Positions 20,513 through 35,592 of a stretch of DNA of 64,000 bases are shown here, piece by piece. A model generated the notes under the pieces. That model ran no database searches and was not told where the DNA came from. It saw nothing but the letters and a program-made list of their open reading frames with translations. The translations under genes and the position numbers were made by a program. This DNA comes from Dactylellina haptotyla (lineage: Eukaryota; Ascomycota; Orbiliomycetes; Orbiliales; Orbiliaceae). Every line of letters begins with the position of its first letter. The first letter of the stretch is position 1. Location: the NCBI GenBank assembly GCA_031310005.1, contig CM062388.1:372001-436000 (forward strand), in the 5' to 3' direction.

Positions 20513-21487
20513 ATGAGTTCATCAGGTAGTGGGACTTCTCTGGGGAGCGATCCCAATCCCGAAGAAAAAAAGCTGTGGGCAGTTGATGAAACCCCTCCGC
20601 GGGACTATGCAGCTGAGTATGATGCCTGCGCCGCAAAGGGAGCCAGTCTCATTGCCGCCTACGAGGCTGCTGCGAACGCGGATGCTCCAGATGTCGACCC
20701 AGATCCGGTGCTGTTGTCTGCACCATCTAGTGATTATCTACTCGAGGTACAAACTGATGCATCGGAGGTTGCTACAAATACCGAGCGACTCACAACTAAA
20801 AATAATGGCATGAAGAAAATTCTGGAACAGAACTACTTCGATCGACATCCCAATATAGATGTTGAAAAACTGCCGCCTGAGATGCAGGTTTTAGCGACGG
20901 ACTACCGTCATTTCTCAATCAACAACCCAAACAATCCGCATGCGGAGGTTTCGGACCGCCCCTACGTCGGCTGGGTCTCGCAGAGAGATAAAACTATCGT
21001 TTGGGCTCGAAGGTATAAGGACCAAGATCGAGCAGAAAACAAAGTGTATCCATCAAACATCACCTTCGCGGTGTGGGCTCATATAGCAACGCATCGTTGG
21101 GATATCGCAACTGAGCCCCTCGAAGTTCACGATCTCGAATACATTGCTATGAATGATGTTATCAACCCTAAGACTTCTGCCGTATGCCGGCAGGTCTACA
21201 AGAATGAAGGCATAAACCTGAACAATGATGTCGAAACCAGAGATGGATTATATCTCTATCCAGGGAGTAGGGACTGGGGAGCATTCGCAGGGACGCCCAA
21301 CGCAGGTTCAATATGGCGTATGGTGGCAGACCATCATAATGCGTTTCAGAATAAGAAACCTATCAAAGTCATGGTTAAATTTAGACCTTATAGGTTCAAT
21401 ATAGAGGAAACAGGTTATTCACGCTTGGTGGACAGAAACGACGATATGCTCAAAGGAACTTGGTTTATTGGAGTAACGATGGGATGA
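20513..21487 (+). CDS. Unknown-domain protein, single-copy member of a tandem pair
   Basis: From the first ATG in frame this is 324 residues. The frame stays open back to 20270 but contains no earlier ATG, so an upstream exon may add residues. The region before the ATG (EDLAYFRYQVARGD) could be coding. Residues about 106-306 share an unrecognised domain with both halves of the next gene. Common points are a TIVWARRYK strand, FAVWAHIATHRW, the block DLEYIAMNDVINPKTS, and SIWRMVADHHNAF followed by IKVMVKF. An Asp/Ala/Ser-rich linker lies before the domain. No signal peptide, membrane helix or catalytic motif is visible. It sits 0.6 kb upstream of its relative on the same strand, as expected of a tandem duplication. 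I do not know a function. Confidence 0.7.
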   Translation: MSSSGSGTSLGSDPNPEEKKLWAVDETPPRDYAAEYDACAAKGASLIAAYEAAANADAPDVDPDPVLLSAPSSDYLLEVQTDASEVATNTERLTTKNNGMKKILEQNYFDRHPNIDVEKLPPEMQVLATDYRHFSINNPNNPHAEVSDRPYVGWVSQRDKTIVWARRYKDQDRAENKVYPSNITFAVWAHIATHRWDIATEPLEVHDLEYIAMNDVINPKTSAVCRQVYKNEGINLNNDVETRDGLYLYPGSRDWGAFAGTPNAGSIWRMVADHHNAFQNKKPIKVMVKFRPYRFNIEETGYSRLVDRNDDMLKGTWFIGVTMG

Positions 21488-22101
21488 AGCTCGCTGTAGG
21501 ATAGAAATTTGATTTTTGACAACCATAGATTTGCTTACAGAGTGATTTCGAGAGCTTCAAAATTGAAAAAGTACTACTGTTGGTTCTTTCCAAGGCTCTG
21601 CTACACTTTAAAAATCTTCACCGTGTTTCCAACTGCCAAAATGTTGGTGGTGACTCCACGTGCCCGAATGATTTAGCAATCAGATACGTATTTGCCACAA
21701 ACATAATTGAAGAATAGTATATCTGCGCAACTAACAATAGACAGCCTAATTCACTTATCAAACGAGATAGCAAAGGCGTAATGTTGTGTTCCAGGTCTGG
21801 GTCTGCATTGCAGACAAAGGGGGTAAAACCGGCCTAGAATGTGTATAGTATTAACTTGAAGAACAAGTAATGCTATTTCCCTCCGTTTGCTCCATATTAA
21901 AGTAGTAGTTCCAAACCACCAATCGTCAAAAGTCTCCCATATCCGACAAATATATTCTTCCAAACATCATTGCCGATTCAATATAATTGCTGGCCTTGCA
22001 AATAGAGAGTAAGGCATATATTTTATGATCTACGAGTTCACAGTTTCCAAAAACTTGATTTAGGAATATTTCCATTCGGAATAAGCGGGAACTCACCAAA
22101 T
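21488..22101. other. Intergenic region between the tandem paralogues
   Basis: About 600 A/T-rich bases that must hold the 3' end of the first paralogue and the promoter of the second. No gene is seen. Confidence 0.5.
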
Positions 22102-24597
22102 ATGGCCAGAGCGTCGCCATCATGGAGATCCGTCATAGCGGTACTAATTTTTATTTTGGTCTTCTTCTCATGGTTAAATACGACCATAATTTTTCGATTC
22201 GCGCGGCCGCGTAGTTCCGGAGATACCGGTTCTCTTTCAACCAAGGAAGCAACTCCCCCCACTAGTCCTGCTGACGCTAAAAGTCCATTGAAAAAATGGA
22301 CGCTTGGGTCTTTAACAAATCGAAAGATACACAAACGAAAGCCTGCTGATACCGATAAGGAAGGAAACCCCCTGATAATCCGAGCCAAAGATAGTCCCGG
22401 GGGTGATGATGAAATACAACCAATAATAACTCGACCACCAACAGAGCAGAGATATACTTTCCAATACCCTGATACCAGGGGATGGGAAGATTTGGTCATG
22501 GTTGGGTATGGGGTCCGCGTAACGGAACCACCACCTGAAGATATTTCGAAAGAAGGCTCTGATATAGTGATGGAGCCACAGAACAACTATCACTATGGGG
22601 CTGTGGATGTTGTTTACACAGACCAGTTGTATAACGGTATCGAAATTCTCCGCGCTTTCGGTAAAACGATAAAGGGCAATGTAGTTCGCACTGTTACTGT
22701 TGAAAACCCTGGAGGGGAACAATCCTTAAAATGCGAAGGAACATACGAATTTACCATCGATCCAAAAGAAGGGATCCTCGTAATCCACCGACGCTTCAAG
22801 AATAGGGACCAAGGTATCCCAGTGGAGGAAAAGACTTCAGAAATAATTTGGAGAGTTTGGTACGAAGAGATAACCAAGGCGGCAGCCAATTTTAAAGAAA
22901 AGAAAACTAAAGTTCCGTGGAAGCGAGAGCCTCGAATCAAGGATTTGAAATATATTACAATGGAAAACGTTGTAAATGCAGAAACAAAAGACAATATAGA
23001 TGACGCGTTTGAAAAGATACGCGGTATGGGTTTATTAGAGGAGCTTAAGGAATGGAAGTGGCATTCTCGAGCAGGCCGATTTTATAAAAAGTCGAACGGT
23101 TACCGTTTTCGAGTCAGTGCCGTTAGCAACAATCCCGTCATGCAACAAGTTTTCAACGCAATTATTGGTTCTAGGAATGGCAAAGGACCAGCTCGAATGC
23201 TGCTGGACCACTCTAAAGCTCTTGGTGGCAAACAAATCATCGAAATCGTAGTTTGGAAGAAATTCGAGGCATTCTATCCTTCGATCGCATATAGACTGGG
23301 TAATTTACCTCTTGGTTACAACCCGCCAAAACCAGATTTCGAGAAATCCAACGCGCGAGGAGGGTGGGGGTCAACTCTGAGAAAGCGAACTTCTCTCTCC
23401 TATATTAATCAAATCGGAAAAAGTTCGGCAATTAGCTTCAGTAGGGAAGCTAAAACTGACTTAGATGGGCTACTTGAAAAATTGCAAAACTGGGCTTTCG
23501 TTAGCATTATCAAGGCTCACATTTTGCTAAAATGCTGGCCAGGTAGATCAGACGAGATAGATCATGGAATACAATATAAATTGGGAGGATTAAGTCGCCT
23601 GGCGGATCCTGACACGAAAACACGTCGCTTGCATGCGCGAGCTACTGAGGAACCCTCCTCGGATCCACCATCACGTGACCCTTGGACTCTTAGCTCCTCA
23701 CCGTTCGACAGTGCAATGGAAAGCTCTGAGATAATGGAATATCGCTCATACGAAGAGTTAGCTATTGATGGCGACAAGATTAGAGCTTCTGCACCTCTAG
23801 AAGTAGATGTATCCCTGGCTGGTTCTGACATCATAACCGATACCGAAAATAACTACGCGATAGAGAAAACAGATATTGAAAATCTGGATGTGAATGACTT
23901 TGAATATCTTCGACTTATTTTATTAGTTGGAAAAACAATCCCACAGAATTTTCAAATGTATTTAGTTGAAAACCCTGTGCCACTGCATCCTAAAAGAAAC
24001 AACGGCAAACCATCGACTCCGTACGCTTTCACTCTTTCTGCAGATGACGGCATCTTCGTAGTAAACAGTGCATTCAAAAAGGAAGACGCTGGCTATACGC
24101 AAGAGTATAGGTTCTCGGAAATACTATTTAGAATTTGGTACGAGGCGGTTCAAGGTACTCAAGGCCAAAGAAGTATTGGAGATCTGAAATATATCATAAT
24201 GGATCTCGTGATTAATGCAGAAACACGAATGTTAACTGAACACATTTTCCAGATCTTGGAAAGGCTGGTGATGCCAGTTAAAATAAACAATGGAAGATAC
24301 TCGGTAGCTGGTTATCAAATCAATTTGAGTTTGGCATCTGGAAACAAGGAAGTGCAACGAGCTTTTAGTGCGCTTATTGGTTGTCAGAATGGTAAAGGAA
24401 TTGCTCGGATGCTTCGAGAACATTGGCAGGCATTTGGGCAAAAGGAGGTCATTGAAATAAAAATATTTAAACATCCGAGTCTTCCACATCCATTTATCCT
24501 ATACAAAGTCGCCAGACTGCCGAGAAGGCTTCCAAATGTTCGCCGGAGTCTTCGATTTAGAGTAGGTACTGATAGACCTCGGCTTACTGAAACATAG
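22102..24597 (+). CDS. Membrane-anchored protein with two copies of an unknown domain
   Basis: A single-exon gene of 831 residues. Residues 11-33 (VIAVLIFILVFFSWLNTTII) form one hydrophobic helix near the N-terminus, preceded by Arg residues, so it is a signal anchor or uncleaved signal. A Pro/Ser/Lys-rich region follows to about 150. Two homologous domains lie at about 160-400 and 582-806. They share QNNY/ENNY at the start, GKTI, VENP, GILVIHRRFK versus GIFVVNSAFK, EIIWRVWYE versus EILFRIWYE, DLKYI-M--V-NAET, and NGKG-ARML--H--A followed by IEI. Between them, 450-500 looks like a worn tail of a third copy. The preceding gene carries one copy. No known enzyme or binding motif is visible. Topology predicts the repeats lie in the secretory lumen or outside the cell, or in the cytosol if the anchor is reversed. 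Confidence 0.85.
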   Translation: MARASPSWRSVIAVLIFILVFFSWLNTTIIFRFARPRSSGDTGSLSTKEATPPTSPADAKSPLKKWTLGSLTNRKIHKRKPADTDKEGNPLIIRAKDSPGGDDEIQPIITRPPTEQRYTFQYPDTRGWEDLVMVGYGVRVTEPPPEDISKEGSDIVMEPQNNYHYGAVDVVYTDQLYNGIEILRAFGKTIKGNVVRTVTVENPGGEQSLKCEGTYEFTIDPKEGILVIHRRFKNRDQGIPVEEKTSEIIWRVWYEEITKAAANFKEKKTKVPWKREPRIKDLKYITMENVVNAETKDNIDDAFEKIRGMGLLEELKEWKWHSRAGRFYKKSNGYRFRVSAVSNNPVMQQVFNAIIGSRNGKGPARMLLDHSKALGGKQIIEIVVWKKFEAFYPSIAYRLGNLPLGYNPPKPDFEKSNARGGWGSTLRKRTSLSYINQIGKSSAISFSREAKTDLDGLLEKLQNWAFVSIIKAHILLKCWPGRSDEIDHGIQYKLGGLSRLADPDTKTRRLHARATEEPSSDPPSRDPWTLSSSPFDSAMESSEIMEYRSYEELAIDGDKIRASAPLEVDVSLAGSDIITDTENNYAIEKTDIENLDVNDFEYLRLILLVGKTIPQNFQMYLVENPVPLHPKRNNGKPSTPYAFTLSADDGIFVVNSAFKKEDAGYTQEYRFSEILFRIWYEAVQGTQGQRSIGDLKYIIMDLVINAETRMLTEHIFQILERLVMPVKINNGRYSVAGYQINLSLASGNKEVQRAFSALIGCQNGKGIARMLREHWQAFGQKEVIEIKIFKHPSLPHPFILYKVARLPRRLPNVRRSLRFRVGTDRPRLTET

Positions 24598-25929: not shown

Positions 25930-26808
25930 ATGTGTTTGGAGGAAATAAGTTCATGCGGTGCTGGTCACTGTAAGCGTCAATACGGTCAAAATCGATGGCG
26001 TGATGGCTACACTTTTCAATACCAACTCAATGGCGTTGTCCCAGGAGTAAACCAACAGGCTATGGAAGCTGCCTTTGAGCGTGCCTTCCAGAAATGGGCC
26101 AAATATGTTCCTTATAGTTTCCAGAAGGCAAACGGAAACGCTAATTTAGTGATCAGCATTGTCGGTGCAAACGATAACTTTTTCAGACAAAATCCCGGAA
26201 CACAGGCGTACGCTAATAACGGACCTAATGGTGCGAGTGGGGGGATAAGCCACATTAATTTCATGGGCCCTGCATTCCCGAGAGGATGGACTGCGGCAGC
26301 TGTACATACTCTGTTTTTGCATGAGTTTGGTCATGTACTTGGCTTAACCCATGCAAATAATTTTAACTCTATTATGAATGCTTCTATTAACAACATGTTC
26401 AGTGAGCGAGAGCTCACGACTGATGATATTCAGAGGATTCAGGCCATTGTTGGAGTGGGCAAAGGACGAAACACCCAGGACAGCTACAATAACAACCAGC
26501 AAAACCCCCAGCAAAACCCACAGCAAAACCCCTATGGCCAACCAAATGTTGGAAACCCAAGGCTTCCGTCTCAGAATTACGGTCAACCAAATCAACGATA
26601 TGGTAACCCCTACCAAACCGGACCTCAACGTGGGCCTGGCCAATTCTATCAGAATGGGTACCAGAATCCGACTCAAAACCGGTATCAGCGTCAGCAAGGC
26701 CAAGGTTATCGTACTTACAGGCGATCGGCAATCGAACCTGGTAGTTCTCAAGATGAGAAAGGGGAGCCCGCAAGACGTTGGAAACGTCATCTGAAATTCG
26801 ACGAATAG
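25930..26808 (+). CDS. Matrixin-like (M10A) zinc metalloprotease, Gln/Asn/Pro-rich tail
   Basis: A 292-residue protein. The catalytic fold begins almost at the start: RWRDGYTFQYQLNG (22-35) and AFERAFQKWAKYVPYSF match the opening of matrixin domains. The zinc site is HEFGHVLGLTH (131-141, HExxHxxGxxH) with Glu132 as the catalytic base. The Met-turn is SIMNAS (147-152). So the active site is complete. There is no propeptide with a cysteine switch. No clear signal peptide precedes the domain, although an in-frame stop just upstream supports this start. Residues 180-292 are low-complexity, rich in Gln, Asn, Pro, Gly and Tyr with repeated QQNPQQNP units, then a basic end. The target and location are unknown; non-classical export, or a missing 5' exon with its own signal, is possible. 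Confidence 0.85.
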   Translation: MCLEEISSCGAGHCKRQYGQNRWRDGYTFQYQLNGVVPGVNQQAMEAAFERAFQKWAKYVPYSFQKANGNANLVISIVGANDNFFRQNPGTQAYANNGPNGASGGISHINFMGPAFPRGWTAAAVHTLFLHEFGHVLGLTHANNFNSIMNASINNMFSERELTTDDIQRIQAIVGVGKGRNTQDSYNNNQQNPQQNPQQNPYGQPNVGNPRLPSQNYGQPNQRYGNPYQTGPQRGPGQFYQNGYQNPTQNRYQRQQGQGYRTYRRSAIEPGSSQDEKGEPARRWKRHLKFDE

Positions 26809-29934: not shown

Positions 29935-30834
29935 TTATAACCGCGATCCTTCACTAAAGGTCGTACCTCGCCTTCCGTCAAGAATATAACTAACAACGGG
30001 TCCTCCACTCCAAATACTCTGACTTGTCTCATCCACTTCAGTCCCAACAATGGCATTGACATCATTATCCCTATCCCCATCAATAAAATTACCTCCTTGT
30101 AGGCCTTCCAGACGCTTTAAAACTCTTCGCTTTCTTCTTCGGTTTCGAATTTTGTGAACAGTCAGGGCCGTAATACAGACCGCCGCCGAGATACCACCAA
30201 TCGTGCCACCGATTATTGCGGCAGCAGGCTTCGGTTGGTTTGGGAATGGCGGCGGTGTAGTTGCGTAATTTGTTGGCATCGTGGTTGTCGAAGTCGGGTT
30301 TGCGGTGTTCGTGCGTGGCGTGGCAAGTTTCGTATCTGAACCCTGGGCGACAGTTTCAGATCTCGTAGTCTCGGAACCCCCTCTTGAGCTACTAGATATA
30401 TCCGTCGCCGGCAAATTCTCTCGGTTGCCATTGGCGGTCTCAGTCAGAATCTGATTTTGCGTATTTCCGCCAATGCTGGCAGTTGTGGTGAGAATCACAA
30501 CTCCAGAGCTGGAAGTTGTGACTGAGTTCAAACTCGAACAGATAAACTGCGAGAAGAAACCACCCCTTTGACCTCCGCCACCCCCAAACCCACCAAACCC
30601 GCCCGTACAATTTGCACCAACACAGTTCTCTAGCAGTGCCAAATTGGTGGAATTGTTACAGTAGCATGGTAGATTACCTGGGTCGCAACCGGTTTGTGGT
30701 GATAGTTGTGACATACAGTCAAAACCGCAGCGCGGCATGCCGGCTGGCTGCGGTGTCGAAACGCATGATGGGAGGAGCAGGAAGCCAACAGGGAGGAGAT
30801 AAAGGAAAGTTGGTATTGTATGATACTGGAACAT
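29935..30834 (-). CDS. CFEM-domain single-pass membrane protein
   Basis: A 299-residue single-exon gene. A signal peptide (about 1-26, FLYLLPVGFLLLPSCVS) is followed by a CFEM domain with all eight cysteines (36, 40, 50, 57, 59, 71, 76, 99) in the pattern PxCxxxC, then CDPGNLPCYC and CVGANC. A Gly-rich insert (GGFGGFGGGGG) separates the seventh and eighth cysteines. A Ser/Thr/Pro-rich stalk runs to about 200, then one transmembrane helix (about 205-227) and a basic tail (KIRNRRRKRR). CFEM proteins act at the fungal surface in haem/iron uptake, host recognition and wall structure. The position three residues before Cys57, usually Asp and the haem-iron ligand in haem-binding members, is Asn54 here. 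A helix instead of a GPI signal suggests a receptor-like role, which is inference. Confidence 0.88.
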   Translation of the reverse strand: MFQYHTIPTFLYLLPVGFLLLPSCVSTPQPAGMPRCGFDCMSQLSPQTGCDPGNLPCYCNNSTNLALLENCVGANCTGGFGGFGGGGGQRGGFFSQFICSSLNSVTTSSSGVVILTTTASIGGNTQNQILTETANGNRENLPATDISSSSRGGSETTRSETVAQGSDTKLATPRTNTANPTSTTTMPTNYATTPPPFPNQPKPAAAIIGGTIGGISAAVCITALTVHKIRNRRRKRRVLKRLEGLQGGNFIDGDRDNDVNAIVGTEVDETSQSIWSGGPVVSYILDGRRGTTFSEGSRL

Positions 30835-31855: not shown

Positions 31856-32858
31856 CTAGTGAAACGAAAGAAGCACCGCTACCAACAAGGCGAATGTAGC
31901 GACACCCCTCTCCACATTTGGCACATGAGCAGCATTCATCTTGATTGAAGATTCAGTGATATTCCCTCCTTTACCTGCTTCAGCCGGAGCAGCTCCGAGG
32001 TTCGCATTCTCGGCAGTTACTGCTGAGCCGCTCTCGGTTTCATTGGATCCAACTGGCAATTCCGCATCTTTTATTCCTGACTCCCTCTTGGGGAACTTGC
32101 TAGTATCGAGTTTGGGGCAGGCCTGCTTCAATGTGATCAAGGCCTCCTTGGGTGTGCCCTTCTCACCAGTCTTCACGGCTTCCTTCTCATTCTCATCGAC
32201 CTGGATGATGACTTTCTTGGGTCCCCACAGCCATGCATTTTGGGCGCCGCAGGTACTTTCCGTGCAAAATTCCTCCGGTTTCTTGGTAGATATTGTATTT
32301 AGCGTGCCACCGTCTTGGGTGAAAACTTCTTCTTCTTGAAGAATACACCATTTTTTAGTTCCCTTTTTAGGTTTCCTATTTAAATGGTATCAGTACTATA
32401 AATTGCATAAAGCATGATGTAAAATATTATATTGGAGCTTACAGATCAGTGAGACATTTATTCCAGTATACTTCGTTTATAAAGAATTGTTGTAAATCCA
32501 CATCCTTTAACCTTATGGATTTTGTGGTTGCATTCGATCTCCCAATGAATTTCAAAAAATCTGCCGGCGAGCAATTTTCATTACCGCGAATCCAGCCTTC
32601 TAAGCTCTTTAAACAGGTATCCGTGCATATCATTTCCAGCTGTTTCTCGCTGGGCATCTCGGACGGCGTTCCGAGTACGGGTTTCTGCATGATGATCGGA
32701 TGGCAGTTGACATGTTCGGAGTACGCTGCATCACATTTTGGATCCTTGCCAACGGGTTTTGGAACTAAGTTTCCTGCATTTTTCTTCATAAAGAACCCCA
32801 AGTCCGCCGTAACGAGCGTGGAGAATAGCAGGAGTGAAGACACCTTTACCCAAACCAT
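31856..32858 (-). CDS. Secreted cysteine-containing protein, probable GPI anchor
   Basis: Two exons, 32858-32443 and 32375-31856, are joined across a 67-base intron (GTAAGC to AATAG) and give 311 residues. The start is placed at the second ATG of the frame because MVWVKVSSLLLFSTLVTA is a clean signal peptide; the upstream ATG at 32924 would bury it. The mature part has scattered cysteines in pairs (KCDAAYSEHVNC, ICTDTC, ENC, NKC, WC, FCTESTC) suggesting disulphides, then a Glu/Lys/Ser-rich low-complexity region. The C-terminus is a hydrophobic tail (VATFALLVAVLLSFH), as in GPI attachment signals. It should be a wall or membrane surface protein. I recognise no named family. Confidence 0.75.
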
Positions 32859-33913
32859 CTTGAACTTTTGTGTTGAAAGGATCGTGGGAGGAAAGTCGTA
32901 AGGGAGTGAACAGCCCAAAGGCAACAGACGCTATGAGAAAAAAGAGGAAAAAAGAGTGAATAGCTCGAAGAGCGTGAAACCTCGTTTCTACCGACGAAAG
33001 TCTAGAACCATCATCCTCTGAATTGATTCTTTTTCCAATGTGGACAAGATATGGAGTTTATATACGTCTTGGCTCGAAATCCGCATGTGGTGGTTATTGT
33101 TGTTGTTCACCCAAACTCGGCTAAGGCGGCTTGGGCGACCAAATTCGGCTCCCACGAACATCAAGAGTTACTAGAACCGCAACTAGACCCTCCATGGCTG
33201 GATTCCTCTAAATGTGGATCCGTAGAGCCCAGCATTAGATTTGATTCCCATAAAATCTGCACACAGGTGTCCTCAACGGCTCCGCATTGCATTTCAAAAC
33301 TCGGGGTAACAGAAAACAGCTCTGATAGTCGATCTATCGCGATAGTGGTATCGGTATCGTCTGATAGAGTTGGTTAATCGGTCCCGATTTAACGTTTCGG
33401 GGTCGACAGCTAAGGTTCTCTAATTCTCTTAGGTAATGCAAGTACAAGAGATTTTGAAAGCTTGGCCCTTTTAATATATACTATTTCTGGAAATGCGGCC
33501 GTTCGCATCGAGTAGAAAGCCAGAAGGATTGAGTGATCCAGTTCGTTTCCTGAATGCTTATTTCCATCCTAATGTCGACAAGTCTTGGCACGCCGCACCC
33601 TTATCGGCTGCTCTGTCCTGCCAAGATGTCAGGATCGGCCCAAAGTAGATGAATAGAGTCCGGAATATCGGAATAATGGTATTTGAACATTTACAACATT
33701 AGCATACAAATTGGACATTCGCCGCGTACGCGACGGTGTGTGACTAGCCTAAACTATCGTGATATCTAAGGCTTGGGCGAAATGAGAGTACTAAGAAAGG
33801 CTTATATCCTGCCCAGGTATTGATACCAGTCTTTTAGAGAATGCTGGGGCAATTCTGTGCTCATTATCCGGTATATTCTTAGCGAGAACACATTGAATAT
33901 TTCGTTGATACTC
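32859..33913. other. Intergenic region
   Basis: The promoter side of the Cys-containing secreted gene and the 3' side of the repeat protein gene. A 108-codon plus-strand frame at 33051-33377 has no features and I do not call it. Confidence 0.45.
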
Positions 33914-34651
33914 TTAGAAGGAGCTGTCGAGATCGGTGTAAGACCTAGCCATCGGTATATTTCCTAGCGTAAACTTGCTCTTCAATGCAGATGGATAAGT
34001 AGGACTTTTTCCTGAACCCATCATTCGACCAACAGTCAAATCATCATACTGACTCTTCGTTTCCTCCATTGGCATATCATCAAGATTGGTGATAGAGGTC
34101 GCCACTGGGATATCGCCCCAAGCAAGTTTCTTCTTCATAGCATCAGGATAGGTTGCGCCTTGATCCGGATCAAAAATGCGGCCAACGGTAACATCATCAG
34201 CTTGATCTAGTATATCTCCTTCGGGATACCCGTAGACACCGGTATACGAAGTTGCCATAGGGATATTAGCCAGTTTAAAATTTCCACCCATGGCATCTGG
34301 ATAAGTATCTCTTTGGTCGTCTAGGATCAAGCCTGCCGTCATGTCGGTGATATCGTCGAACTGGGCCAGTCCTGCAGCGTTCTGTAGATCCGCATAAGAG
34401 GTGGCTAGTGGTATATCTTCGAAACCGAACTGGTCTCCAAACGCATCCGGGTATGGGTCGGTGTTGTAAGGATAACCGCCTACATGAGTAGTTGCTAGAA
34501 CATCATCCTCAACGAAATCGCCGTCATCTACAGAAGCGTCTAGCTCGAAATCCGATACTGAAGATTCGTCGGGTATATAGCCAAGTTTCAGCGTAGAACA
34601 GCTCACGGAGGCGCAAAAGGCTGTTATCGACAGAATTTTAGATACTTTCAT
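33914..34651 (-). CDS. Secreted protein of four ~51-residue tandem repeats
   Basis: A single-exon gene of 245 residues. The start is placed at 34651 because MKVSKILSITAFCASVSC is a good signal peptide; the frame opens further upstream, at 34717. After an acidic stretch (about 28-50) come four imperfect repeats. Each starts at a Tyr-Pro-Asp/Ser-Ala block (Tyr67, Tyr117, Tyr168, Tyr219; spacing 50, 51, 51). The unit reads T-Y-P-D-A-M, a basic or Gly-rich patch, then I-P-[MLV]-A-[TR]-S-Y, then a linker with DD-[VIL]-T-[VD]-G-R. The fourth unit ends the protein after its ARSY block. There are almost no cysteines after the signal. I see no enzyme motif and no regular dibasic processing sites. It may be a structural, adhesive or effector-type secreted protein. 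I know no named family for the repeat. Confidence 0.8.
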   Translation of the reverse strand: MKVSKILSITAFCASVSCSTLKLGYIPDESSVSDFELDASVDDGDFVEDDVLATTHVGGYPYNTDPYPDAFGDQFGFEDIPLATSYADLQNAAGLAQFDDITDMTAGLILDDQRDTYPDAMGGNFKLANIPMATSYTGVYGYPEGDILDQADDVTVGRIFDPDQGATYPDAMKKKLAWGDIPVATSITNLDDMPMEETKSQYDDLTVGRMMGSGKSPTYPSALKSKFTLGNIPMARSYTDLDSSF

Positions 34652-35592
34652 TTTTCTATATTGATACACGCTGACGCCGATTTTATCTCTGCTTCGGAAT
34701 ATAAAAAATAAGGGCACTGTAAATTTTCAGTGTACGTGTTTTTATCTTGCTAAAAAATAATAAAAATATTTTCGTTCGAATTGTATTAAGAAGCGTGAAA
34801 GCGCAATTGCGGCAGTTTTATATCAACACAGACGTTTGCAAGATACCACGCATTTTCCCACGCCACCAAGTTATACAAGGCTCGTTCTAATCGAGCATCT
34901 TCCCTGGTTTCTCCTAAGCTTGGAATTAAAAGACAAGCCTTCTGAGGCACTTTCAATTTTTGGGAAAGCGTCCAATAGCTCATGATTTCAGGAACTTTGC
35001 GTCTAGTGTTACTTTGTTGCATTTTGGTATACCAACGCAATTCGGTTACTTACAACTTGTAAGATCCTCTTAGCTTATTCATAGAGTGTAAATCGAACTT
35101 ACGAATTGTAAATTTAACGGAATGGGAGGCATGTAGACTATCTCCAAACGAGAGGCAGTTACAGAGATCGACGTAGGGCTACCGTGTAATTCACGGGGAG
35201 ATACTCCCTACGATGCCTTTATGTAGTAGTGCAACTCACCCATCATGAGATCCGATAGCCGATCCATACCGATTAAGTGAATGATGCGTCCAAGCTATCC
35301 AACAATTGGCTGGATGTTGATAAGAGTCGACTACAGATCTTGAGATCACACCTATTCATAGTATCTGACAGCAGTGTCTTTAGTCCCGCGGTCTCTACCG
35401 ACGTCTCACACTCTTCTGTCTTCTTTATTCATTCCGCCTTCTGAAAATTTGCGCCGTAAATATATTGAATCGTGAAGGTCTATATATCATCCTATATAAT
35501 TGATATGCAGCTATAGAAGCTCTTACATCAATACCAAAATGCATCGTATCACCGCAAATAAGTCTTATCAGGCGTAGTAGCCAGCTCTTCGG
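34652..35592. other. Intergenic region between divergent genes
   Basis: The promoters of the repeat protein (-) and the zinc-module gene (+) lie here. An 84-codon minus-strand frame at 34786-35040 has an ATG but no recognisable features. No RNA gene is seen. Confidence 0.45.

Follow-up and report, generated by a model that had tools for sequence, protein, structure and literature searches.

What is the domain that two tandem genes of the nematode-trapping fungus Dactylellina haptotyla (older name, Monacrosporium haptotylum) have in common, and what might proteins built from it do? The two genes, designated A and B, lie in the window, a 64,000-nucleotide stretch of the genome (Table 1). The original prediction placed a single unrecognized domain once in A and once in each half of B. 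The same domain is indeed present in all three segments, whose pairwise similarity is significant (blastp E-values of 9e-43, 8e-10 and 4e-6), and both the internal duplication within B and the high divergence of the copies are borne out. Residues 410–545 of B exhibit no significant similarity to the N-terminus of B, and there is thus no evidence that B consists of two fused whole genes. The fusion model was rejected, its score being reached by 325 of 2000 shuffles.

Table 1. Genes A and B and their parts, in coordinates of the window
Feature	Position	Strand	Description
Gene A	20513..21487	+	324-aa protein, one domain copy
Domain copy in A	20633..21460	+	profile envelope
Gene B	22102..24597	+	831-aa protein, two domain copies, single uninterrupted open frame
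Hydrophobic segment of B, aa 11-31	22132..22194	+	Kyte-Doolittle ~2.4 over 19
Basic KRKP motif of B, aa 78-81	22333..22344	+	
Domain copy B1	22498..23364	+	profile envelope; alignable with B2 from ~22477
B1-B2 linker, 133 aa	23365..23763	+	
Domain copy B2	23764..24570	+	profile envelope; alignable with B1 from ~23743

Family size and architecture in the genome

The restriction of the domain to three copies in two tandem genes does not hold, and neither does a genome-wide count limited to five copies, which profile searches overturned. An iterative profile finds 19 open frames that together hold at least 44 copies and correspond to about 13 genes, with no reversed-sequence match at E <= 0.01 in any round. 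The domain unit spans approximately 220–280 residues and occurs in two architectures. Short proteins, namely A, B and two others, contain one or two copies, whereas nine giants contain three to five copies each and account for 39 of the total. Protein lengths counted from the first methionine range from 324 to 1,579 residues in the ten genes that lie wholly or mainly in one frame. A profile grown from the giants alone, and thus blind to the five copies of the window type, recovers all five (E-values of 2e-8 to 2e-15), while its closing round gives no other window frame a value better than 0.07 and no reversed frame one better than 0.8. The copy in A matches this blind profile at 2e-8 and the final family profile, which has A itself among its members, at an independent E-value of 4e-59.

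Do the giants still represent intact genes? Four of the nine (on contig C8, at 1.37 Mb and 3.82 Mb on C2, and at 2.83 Mb on C5) are split over frames, as would be expected of a lineage-specific family in decay that now does little. We consider such decay very unlikely, given that each of the four short genes and each of the remaining giants, five in number, reads as one open frame, up to 1,599 codons long, that codon position 3 is the most variable position among the short copies, and that the identity of each position in the chain is retained. Moreover, over 8.4 kb the copies on C8 and C2 show just 5 substitutions alongside 26 indels, a pattern that resembles uncorrected long-read errors rather than decay. 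RIP was also rejected as the source of the divergence. Nine family stretches give TA/AT values of 0.70–0.82 and (CA+TG)/(AC+GT) values of 1.05–1.30, similar to an unrelated window stretch (0.78 and 1.16), and the usual cut-offs are 0.89 and 1.03, respectively.

The copies of the giants are ordered. Across giants, best matches fall at the same ordinal position in 18 of 24 and 28 of 30 cases, compared with permuted means of 5.9 and 6.1, in a test that covered six of the nine giants and set aside two three-copy giants and one near-duplicate. Because copies match by position, the six giants tested descend from one ordered chain. The phylogenetic tree likewise contains clades by position (99/97 and 98/92). 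The ancestral chain most simply had four copies, with the first copy duplicated in the five-copy branch. The short-type copies form a clade of their own (99/95), and A and B are members of a separate short subfamily. The proposed tandem origin of A and B stands less securely, because A groups with B1 and B2 in the tree (94/69), but taken singly it matches a gene on contig C7 best.

N-termini and basic sites

A hydrophobic N-terminus is present in B, where residues 11–31 form a putative signal anchor or signal peptide. By a measure of hydropathy only (a Kyte-Doolittle 11-mer within the first 35 residues), nine of 13 family genes reach 1.89, compared with six of 29 unrelated window ORFs, and five of 13 reach 2.4, compared with one of 29. 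The hydrophobic group includes B and a 391-aa gene on contig C1, which are two of the four short-type genes. Such an N-terminus was not found by hydropathy in A read from the ATG at 20513, in the C7 gene, or in the C8 and C2 1.37-Mb loci as read. A signal exon upstream of A or of the C7 gene was sought under strict splice rules, which gave none. These features raise the alternative that A, the C7 gene and perhaps the ancestral short form function inside the fungus, for example in self/non-self recognition or stress, and that the secreted giants are a later specialization, which would fit the single short-type clade. We regard this scenario as improbable, since half of the short-type genes carry the hydrophobic N-terminus and the short-type genes contain no Pfam domain of any kind above its cut-off.

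Two further features speak against secretion: cysteines are scarce (0–1.5%), and the four short-type proteins show no enrichment of sequons, in contrast to many secreted proteins.

KR dipeptides concentrate ahead of the domain copies, with frequencies per residue of 0.0126 before the first copy, 0.0034 in copies and 0.0016 in linkers (16 of the 19 frames). The linker of B contains one KR site. A polyprotein that is processed by Kex2 to release each unit was rejected, as the linkers hold 3 KR sites in 1,910 residues, compared with 29 in 8,570 residues of the copies in the same 16 frames. Six family genes besides B, two of them near-duplicates, carry KRP in the stretch that leads from the N-terminus to the first copy; with the KRKP of B, such a motif lies near the N-terminus in seven of 13 genes. 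The family could accordingly be imagined as host-directed effectors that are secreted, cut at the N-terminal KR and enter prey cells, with a basic KRPG...RKK-like stretch as a nuclear localization signal. A precedent is PefB, a putative effector from Duddingtonia flagrans that reportedly can enter C. elegans cell nuclei by import (PMC6453484). However, the basic stretch can equally be read as a pro-peptide cleavage site, and it is missing in six of the 13 genes. In addition, chains of 1,000–1,600 residues are large for translocated effectors, and we deem an effector role of this type unlikely.

Conserved residues and comparison with described proteins

Only one residue is near-invariant across both subfamilies, a tryptophan found in 40 of 43 copies; otherwise the subfamilies have a hydrophobic core in common and differ in their polar signatures. 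In the giants, a glutamate is conserved (36 of 38 copies), as is a histidine (29 of 37); the two may mark an active or metal site, and neither is found in the five short copies. In turn, the short copies retain N, Y, K, D, S and H in five of five at an identity of approximately 20–35%, and these six residues are not retained in the giants. Are the two subfamilies enzymes with separate active sites? The conservation of the two polar sets speaks for such a model. We nonetheless give this model little credence, because neither set is common to the other subfamily and searches of Pfam, NCBIfam and PDB sequences bring up no enzyme family above its cut-off. The short-copy histidine was rejected as a family-wide catalytic residue, given that the giants have Y in 20, F in 7 and H in 5 copies at this position.

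As the original prediction held, the domain is nameless, with no described domain above its cut-off in the libraries searched. Neither of the two outcomes that would have refuted the original prediction, a strong match to a described domain and a lack of pairwise similarity, came about. Pfam yields nothing above cut-off in 16 of the 19 frames, submitted either entire or in overlapping segments, and 37 of the 44 copies scanned singly yield 12 sub-cut-off families, each matched by one copy at most. NCBIfam gives no match for the two window proteins, and PADLOC gives none for the four short-type proteins, for which the best PHROGs value is 0.063. Against PDB sequences, B reaches 0.75 at best and two profiles reach 1.6 and 0.25, the latter for 37 of the 44 copies. 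Viral, bacterial and archaeal contigs, collections in which fungal relatives are not expected, gave no confirmed relative. The structure models are weak (pLDDT 38 and 50), and as far as they show, the domain appears to be alpha/beta. Short peptide strings retrieved no publication, and among the papers listed, as judged from titles and the opening lines of abstracts, none deals with the family.

DUF3881 (PF12997) is matched weakly by B2 alone, over 55 of 283 profile positions and with 17.5–20.2 bits against a cut-off of 27. With a match in one of five short copies and one of the 37 copies scanned, the domain is not a member of DUF3881 on this evidence. A likeness may exist to an unnamed, widespread single-copy family of Pezizomycotina with the motifs FSDIxWxxW, LKYxxxxxVTNExT, LLGTPNGxG and QHKxxLGxK. 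Their order and spacing resemble those of the short-type blocks SDIxFxxW, DLxYIxMxxVxNxET, ALIGTPNxxGI and DHxxAxG. Should this putative link hold, A and B would represent divergent members of a nameless family that is already in the sequence databases.

Proteins of nematode-trapping fungi offer further comparisons. The small secreted proteins of M. haptotylum, from the same species, likewise lack Pfam domains and form tandem pairs, and some are apparently secreted, as A/B-family proteins may be, but they are shorter than 300 residues and often cysteine-rich (PMC3828140), whereas the A/B family spans 324–1,579 residues and is cysteine-poor. PefB also comes from a nematode-trapping fungus, lacks a conserved domain and has internal repeat structures; compared by description only, it contains 15.3% arginine and is highly positive (PMC6453484), while most A/B-family frames have a net negative charge. 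WSC, GLEYA, CFEM and DUF3129 are large families that are expanded or highly expressed in these fungi, several of them secreted or on the surface (PMC3828140), and no Pfam match to them occurs in the 16 frames or the 37 copies scanned. Many infection-expressed proteins without a homologue or Pfam domain have been classed as orphans in nematode-trapping fungi (PMC3828140, PMC4237727).

Candidate function of the family

We tentatively propose, with a probability of roughly 0.4, that the A and B family comprises extracytoplasmic modular binding proteins of a nematode-trapping fungus. On the basis of hydropathy, the proteins would enter the secretory pathway and might then lose an N-terminal pro-piece at the KR site. 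The chain would reside extracellularly or at the cell surface, with B tethered via its hydrophobic N-terminus, and would act as a multivalent binder, each position contacting a different partner. Our guess is that the partner is the prey nematode, other fungi or microbes. The recognition or effector role that the original prediction gave as an example for such fast-evolving families is accordingly a putative one. A bolder version is rather doubtful. It envisages a family of giant secreted chains, previously undescribed and coded by position, in which each of the four or five positions has stayed distinct since an ordered ancestral chain and has a partner of its own to bind. The giants would be multivalent recognition or effector rods directed toward nematode prey, and A and B a short branch of which B is membrane-tethered.

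Large proteins without a Pfam match resolve here into one domain family, with at least 44 copies in a single genome and an ordered multi-copy ancestor, which provides a profile for searching other fungi and a discrete unit for expression and structure determination. Do the positions of a chain differ in the partners that they engage when prey is captured? If the putative link to the Pezizomycotina family is true, a fold and function determined for this domain would carry over to many fungal proteins that lack a name.

Genes A and B and the domain they share

Gene A encodes one copy of the domain and gene B two (B1 and B2). The original prediction that a single domain is common to these three segments is borne out by blastp (E values of 9e-43 for B1 and B2, 8e-10 for A and B2, and 4e-6 for A and B1), and the pairwise similarity is significant, with none of 500 shuffled sequences reaching the observed score in any pair. 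The predicted motifs recur in the copies with one exception: in B2, SAFK stands in place of the first motif, R-R-[FY]-K. The shared unit in B starts about 35 residues further N-terminal than the predicted boundary.

Features in the window and at other loci of the same genome (G000). C numbers denote contigs and L numbers loci retrieved from the genome.
Feature	Location	Strand	Description
Gene A	window 20513-21487	+	uninterrupted open frame, 324 aa
Gene B	window 22102-24597	+	uninterrupted open frame, 831 aa
Matrixin-like M10 metalloprotease	window 25930-26808	+	adjoins A/B; PF00413, 8e-17; Q/N/P-rich repetitive C-terminal tail; to our knowledge, such enzymes are uncommon in fungi
CFEM protein	window 29935-30834	-	near A/B; secreted type; PF05730, 1.8e-8
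Small open frame	window 32439-32930	-	near A/B; hydrophobic N-terminus, several cysteines, secreted type (by eye)
Repeat protein	window 33914-34717	-	267 aa; hydrophobic N-terminus; about four diverged YPDA...IPxAxSYT repeats (by eye); no Pfam match at 0.01
Helicase gene	window		best PDB-sequence match is yeast Rad25/Ssl2
Adjacent family genes	C2, 3.816-3.824 Mb		pair
Adjacent family genes	C5, 2.826-2.837 Mb		pair
Displaced half-copy	G000:C2:3820315-3820824 (L029:3816-4325)	-	second half of a fourth copy, in a different frame from the upstream 1,031-codon frame; may reflect a real frame break, an intron or a sequencing error
C1 giant	G000:C1:2329542-2333480 (L058)		low-complexity KDPKGKGGGG-type stretch between N-terminus and first copy, absent from the other family N-termini inspected
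C8 segment	G000:C8:13574-21954 (L043)		one giant; about 14 kb from contig end
C2 segment	G000:C2:1369039-1377400 (L044)		one giant

The original prediction could name no matching family, and database searches agree. No Pfam match lies above its cut-off in 16 of the 19 family frames, scanned whole or as overlapping pieces; DUF3881 scores 17.5-20.2 bits on one copy, below its cut-off of 27, other matches fall further under their own cut-offs, and no Pfam family is matched by more than one of the 37 copies scanned. Nothing significant was found in NCBIfam for the two window proteins or in PADLOC and PHROGs for the four short-type proteins. Searches of PDB sequences returned no match, and those of viral and prokaryote contig collections no confirmed relative. 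One lead is a single-copy family, widespread in Pezizomycotina and without a name, whose blocks follow a similar order.

Extent of the family

The genome searched, in which the window occupies C10:372001-436000, spans 39.8 Mb in 11 contigs. A as a query finds a single-copy gene on C7 (326 aa, E 9e-10), and B2 finds a single-copy gene on C1 (391 aa, E 0.07), which the C7 gene reaches at E 3.5e-4. A consensus of these five short-type copies picked up no further match in the genome, and this null search at first suggested a small five-copy family, an idea overturned by the giants, large proteins carrying three to five copies. The core of the C1 391-aa protein matches C2 weakly (E 0.46), where a 1,031-codon frame holds several diverged copies. 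With that protein as a query, more large frames emerge on C8, C2, C5 and C1, and one of these in turn finds a C9 frame and another on C1.

An iterative profile was run on 2,209 six-frame translations, each an open frame of 40 aa or longer, from the window and the retrieved loci. It converged on at least 44 copies in at least 19 frames, and in no round did a reversed sequence reach E <= 0.01. The 44 include one partial copy and five copies from a near-duplicate of the C8 segment; two further profile rows, beyond the 44, repeat one frame in cut form. The count, a lower bound, stands at 13 genes in 10 places on seven contigs. C1 has three of these places and C2 two, one of which holds two genes; C10 contributes A and B, C5 another adjacent pair, and C7, C8 and C9 a single gene each. 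Adjacent pairs, as in the window, occur again on C2 and C5.

The link between short and giant members holds in a blind profile seeded with one copy from the C5 1,599-codon frame and grown without short-type copies. It grew to 38 giant copies from 14 frames before recovering all five short-type copies, at 2e-15 (C1), 2e-13 (C7), 1e-9 and 2e-9 (B) and 2e-8 (A), against 0.07 for the best other window frame and 0.8 for the best reversed frame in the same round; across all rounds, the lowest values were 0.05 and 0.1, respectively.

Giants account for nine of the 13 genes. Five of them occupy one frame each, with lengths from 1,234 to 1,599 codons, and four are split over frames, on C2 (1,031+170), C5 (579+1,159), C8 and C2 at 1.37 Mb. 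The C8 and C2 segments, each of 8.4 kb, are 99.0% identical and differ over 8,410 bp by 26 indels and five substitutions; they probably arose by recent segmental duplication, the indels being uncorrected long-read errors. Given this excess of indels, frame breaks in the assembly may be sequencing errors; all were kept as assembled.

Order and conservation of the copies

The giants compared descend from an ordered chain of copies. In a test of six of the nine giants, which left out two three-copy giants and the near-duplicate and took the pieces of split loci in genomic order, the best match lay at the same ordinal position in 18 of 24 cases for three four-copy loci (permuted mean 5.9; a count reached in 1 of 2,000 permutations) and in 28 of 30 for three five-copy loci (permuted mean 6.1; 2 of 2,000). 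A tree of 38 copies, in which several long branches meet and from which the partial copy and the five near-duplicates were dropped, contains clades for one middle position (99/97) and for the first position (98/92), to which the five-copy branch contributes two copies. Because a copy resembles its counterparts at that position in other giants more than its neighbors within one giant, sequence comparison indicates an old chain whose positions were kept distinct. The five short-type copies form one clade (99/95). Within it, A groups with B1 and B2 at 94/69 only, and the C7 gene is the best single match to A, so a tandem origin of the pair, as predicted, is no more than a possibility.

A core tryptophan is near-invariant across both subfamilies (40/43) and is the sole residue at that level. 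The next most conserved residues are T (31/43), G (30/43) and S (30/41); a proline occupies every row with a residue in its column (31 of 44 rows), and the remaining listed columns are mostly hydrophobic. At the column of B2 residue 763, 36 of 38 giant copies carry a glutamate; a histidine is kept in 29 of 37, and neither residue occurs in any of the five short copies. Conversely, N, Y, K, D, S and H are invariant in the short copies and not retained in giants, where the column of this H holds Y (20), F (7) or H (5). These differences in polar residues argue that no single catalytic site is common to the whole family; the glutamate and histidine may form a giant-specific site. Structure models of the three window copies reach a pLDDT of 50 at best and yield no recognized fold; their C-terminal half, which is better modeled, would run strand-helix-strand-strand-helix-helix-strand-strand, an order taken from weak models.

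N-terminal regions and possible function

What could these proteins do? By the mean Kyte-Doolittle hydropathy of 11 residues within 35 residues of the first Met, nine of the 13 family genes reach 1.89 or more, versus 6 of 29 unrelated window ORFs; at a cut of 2.4, the counts are 5/13 and 1/29. By the same measure, a hydrophobic N-terminus is missing in A, C7, C2 at 1.37 Mb and C8. The region ahead of the first copy is basic, with 0.0126 KR per residue versus 0.0034 in copies and 0.0016 in linkers (16 of 19 frames); seven of the 13 genes carry a KRP or KRKP motif. This pattern would fit removal of an N-terminal pro-piece or a nuclear localization signal, and it makes cleavage between copies unlikely.

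Dactylellina haptotyla, a nematode-trapping fungus, was formerly named Monacrosporium haptotylum. The latter is a knob-forming species (PMC3828140), and infection-upregulated, species-specific secreted proteins of less than 300 aa have been described in D. haptotyla (PMC3828140). The family proteins are larger and cysteine-poor and would not belong to that class. The best-supported view, to which we assign a probability of roughly 40%, is that the family consists of extracytoplasmic modular binding proteins, with secretion suggested by hydropathy and function by pattern. The family has two forms, short one- or two-copy members such as A and B and giant chains, and, judging from the organism alone, its members may act towards nematodes.
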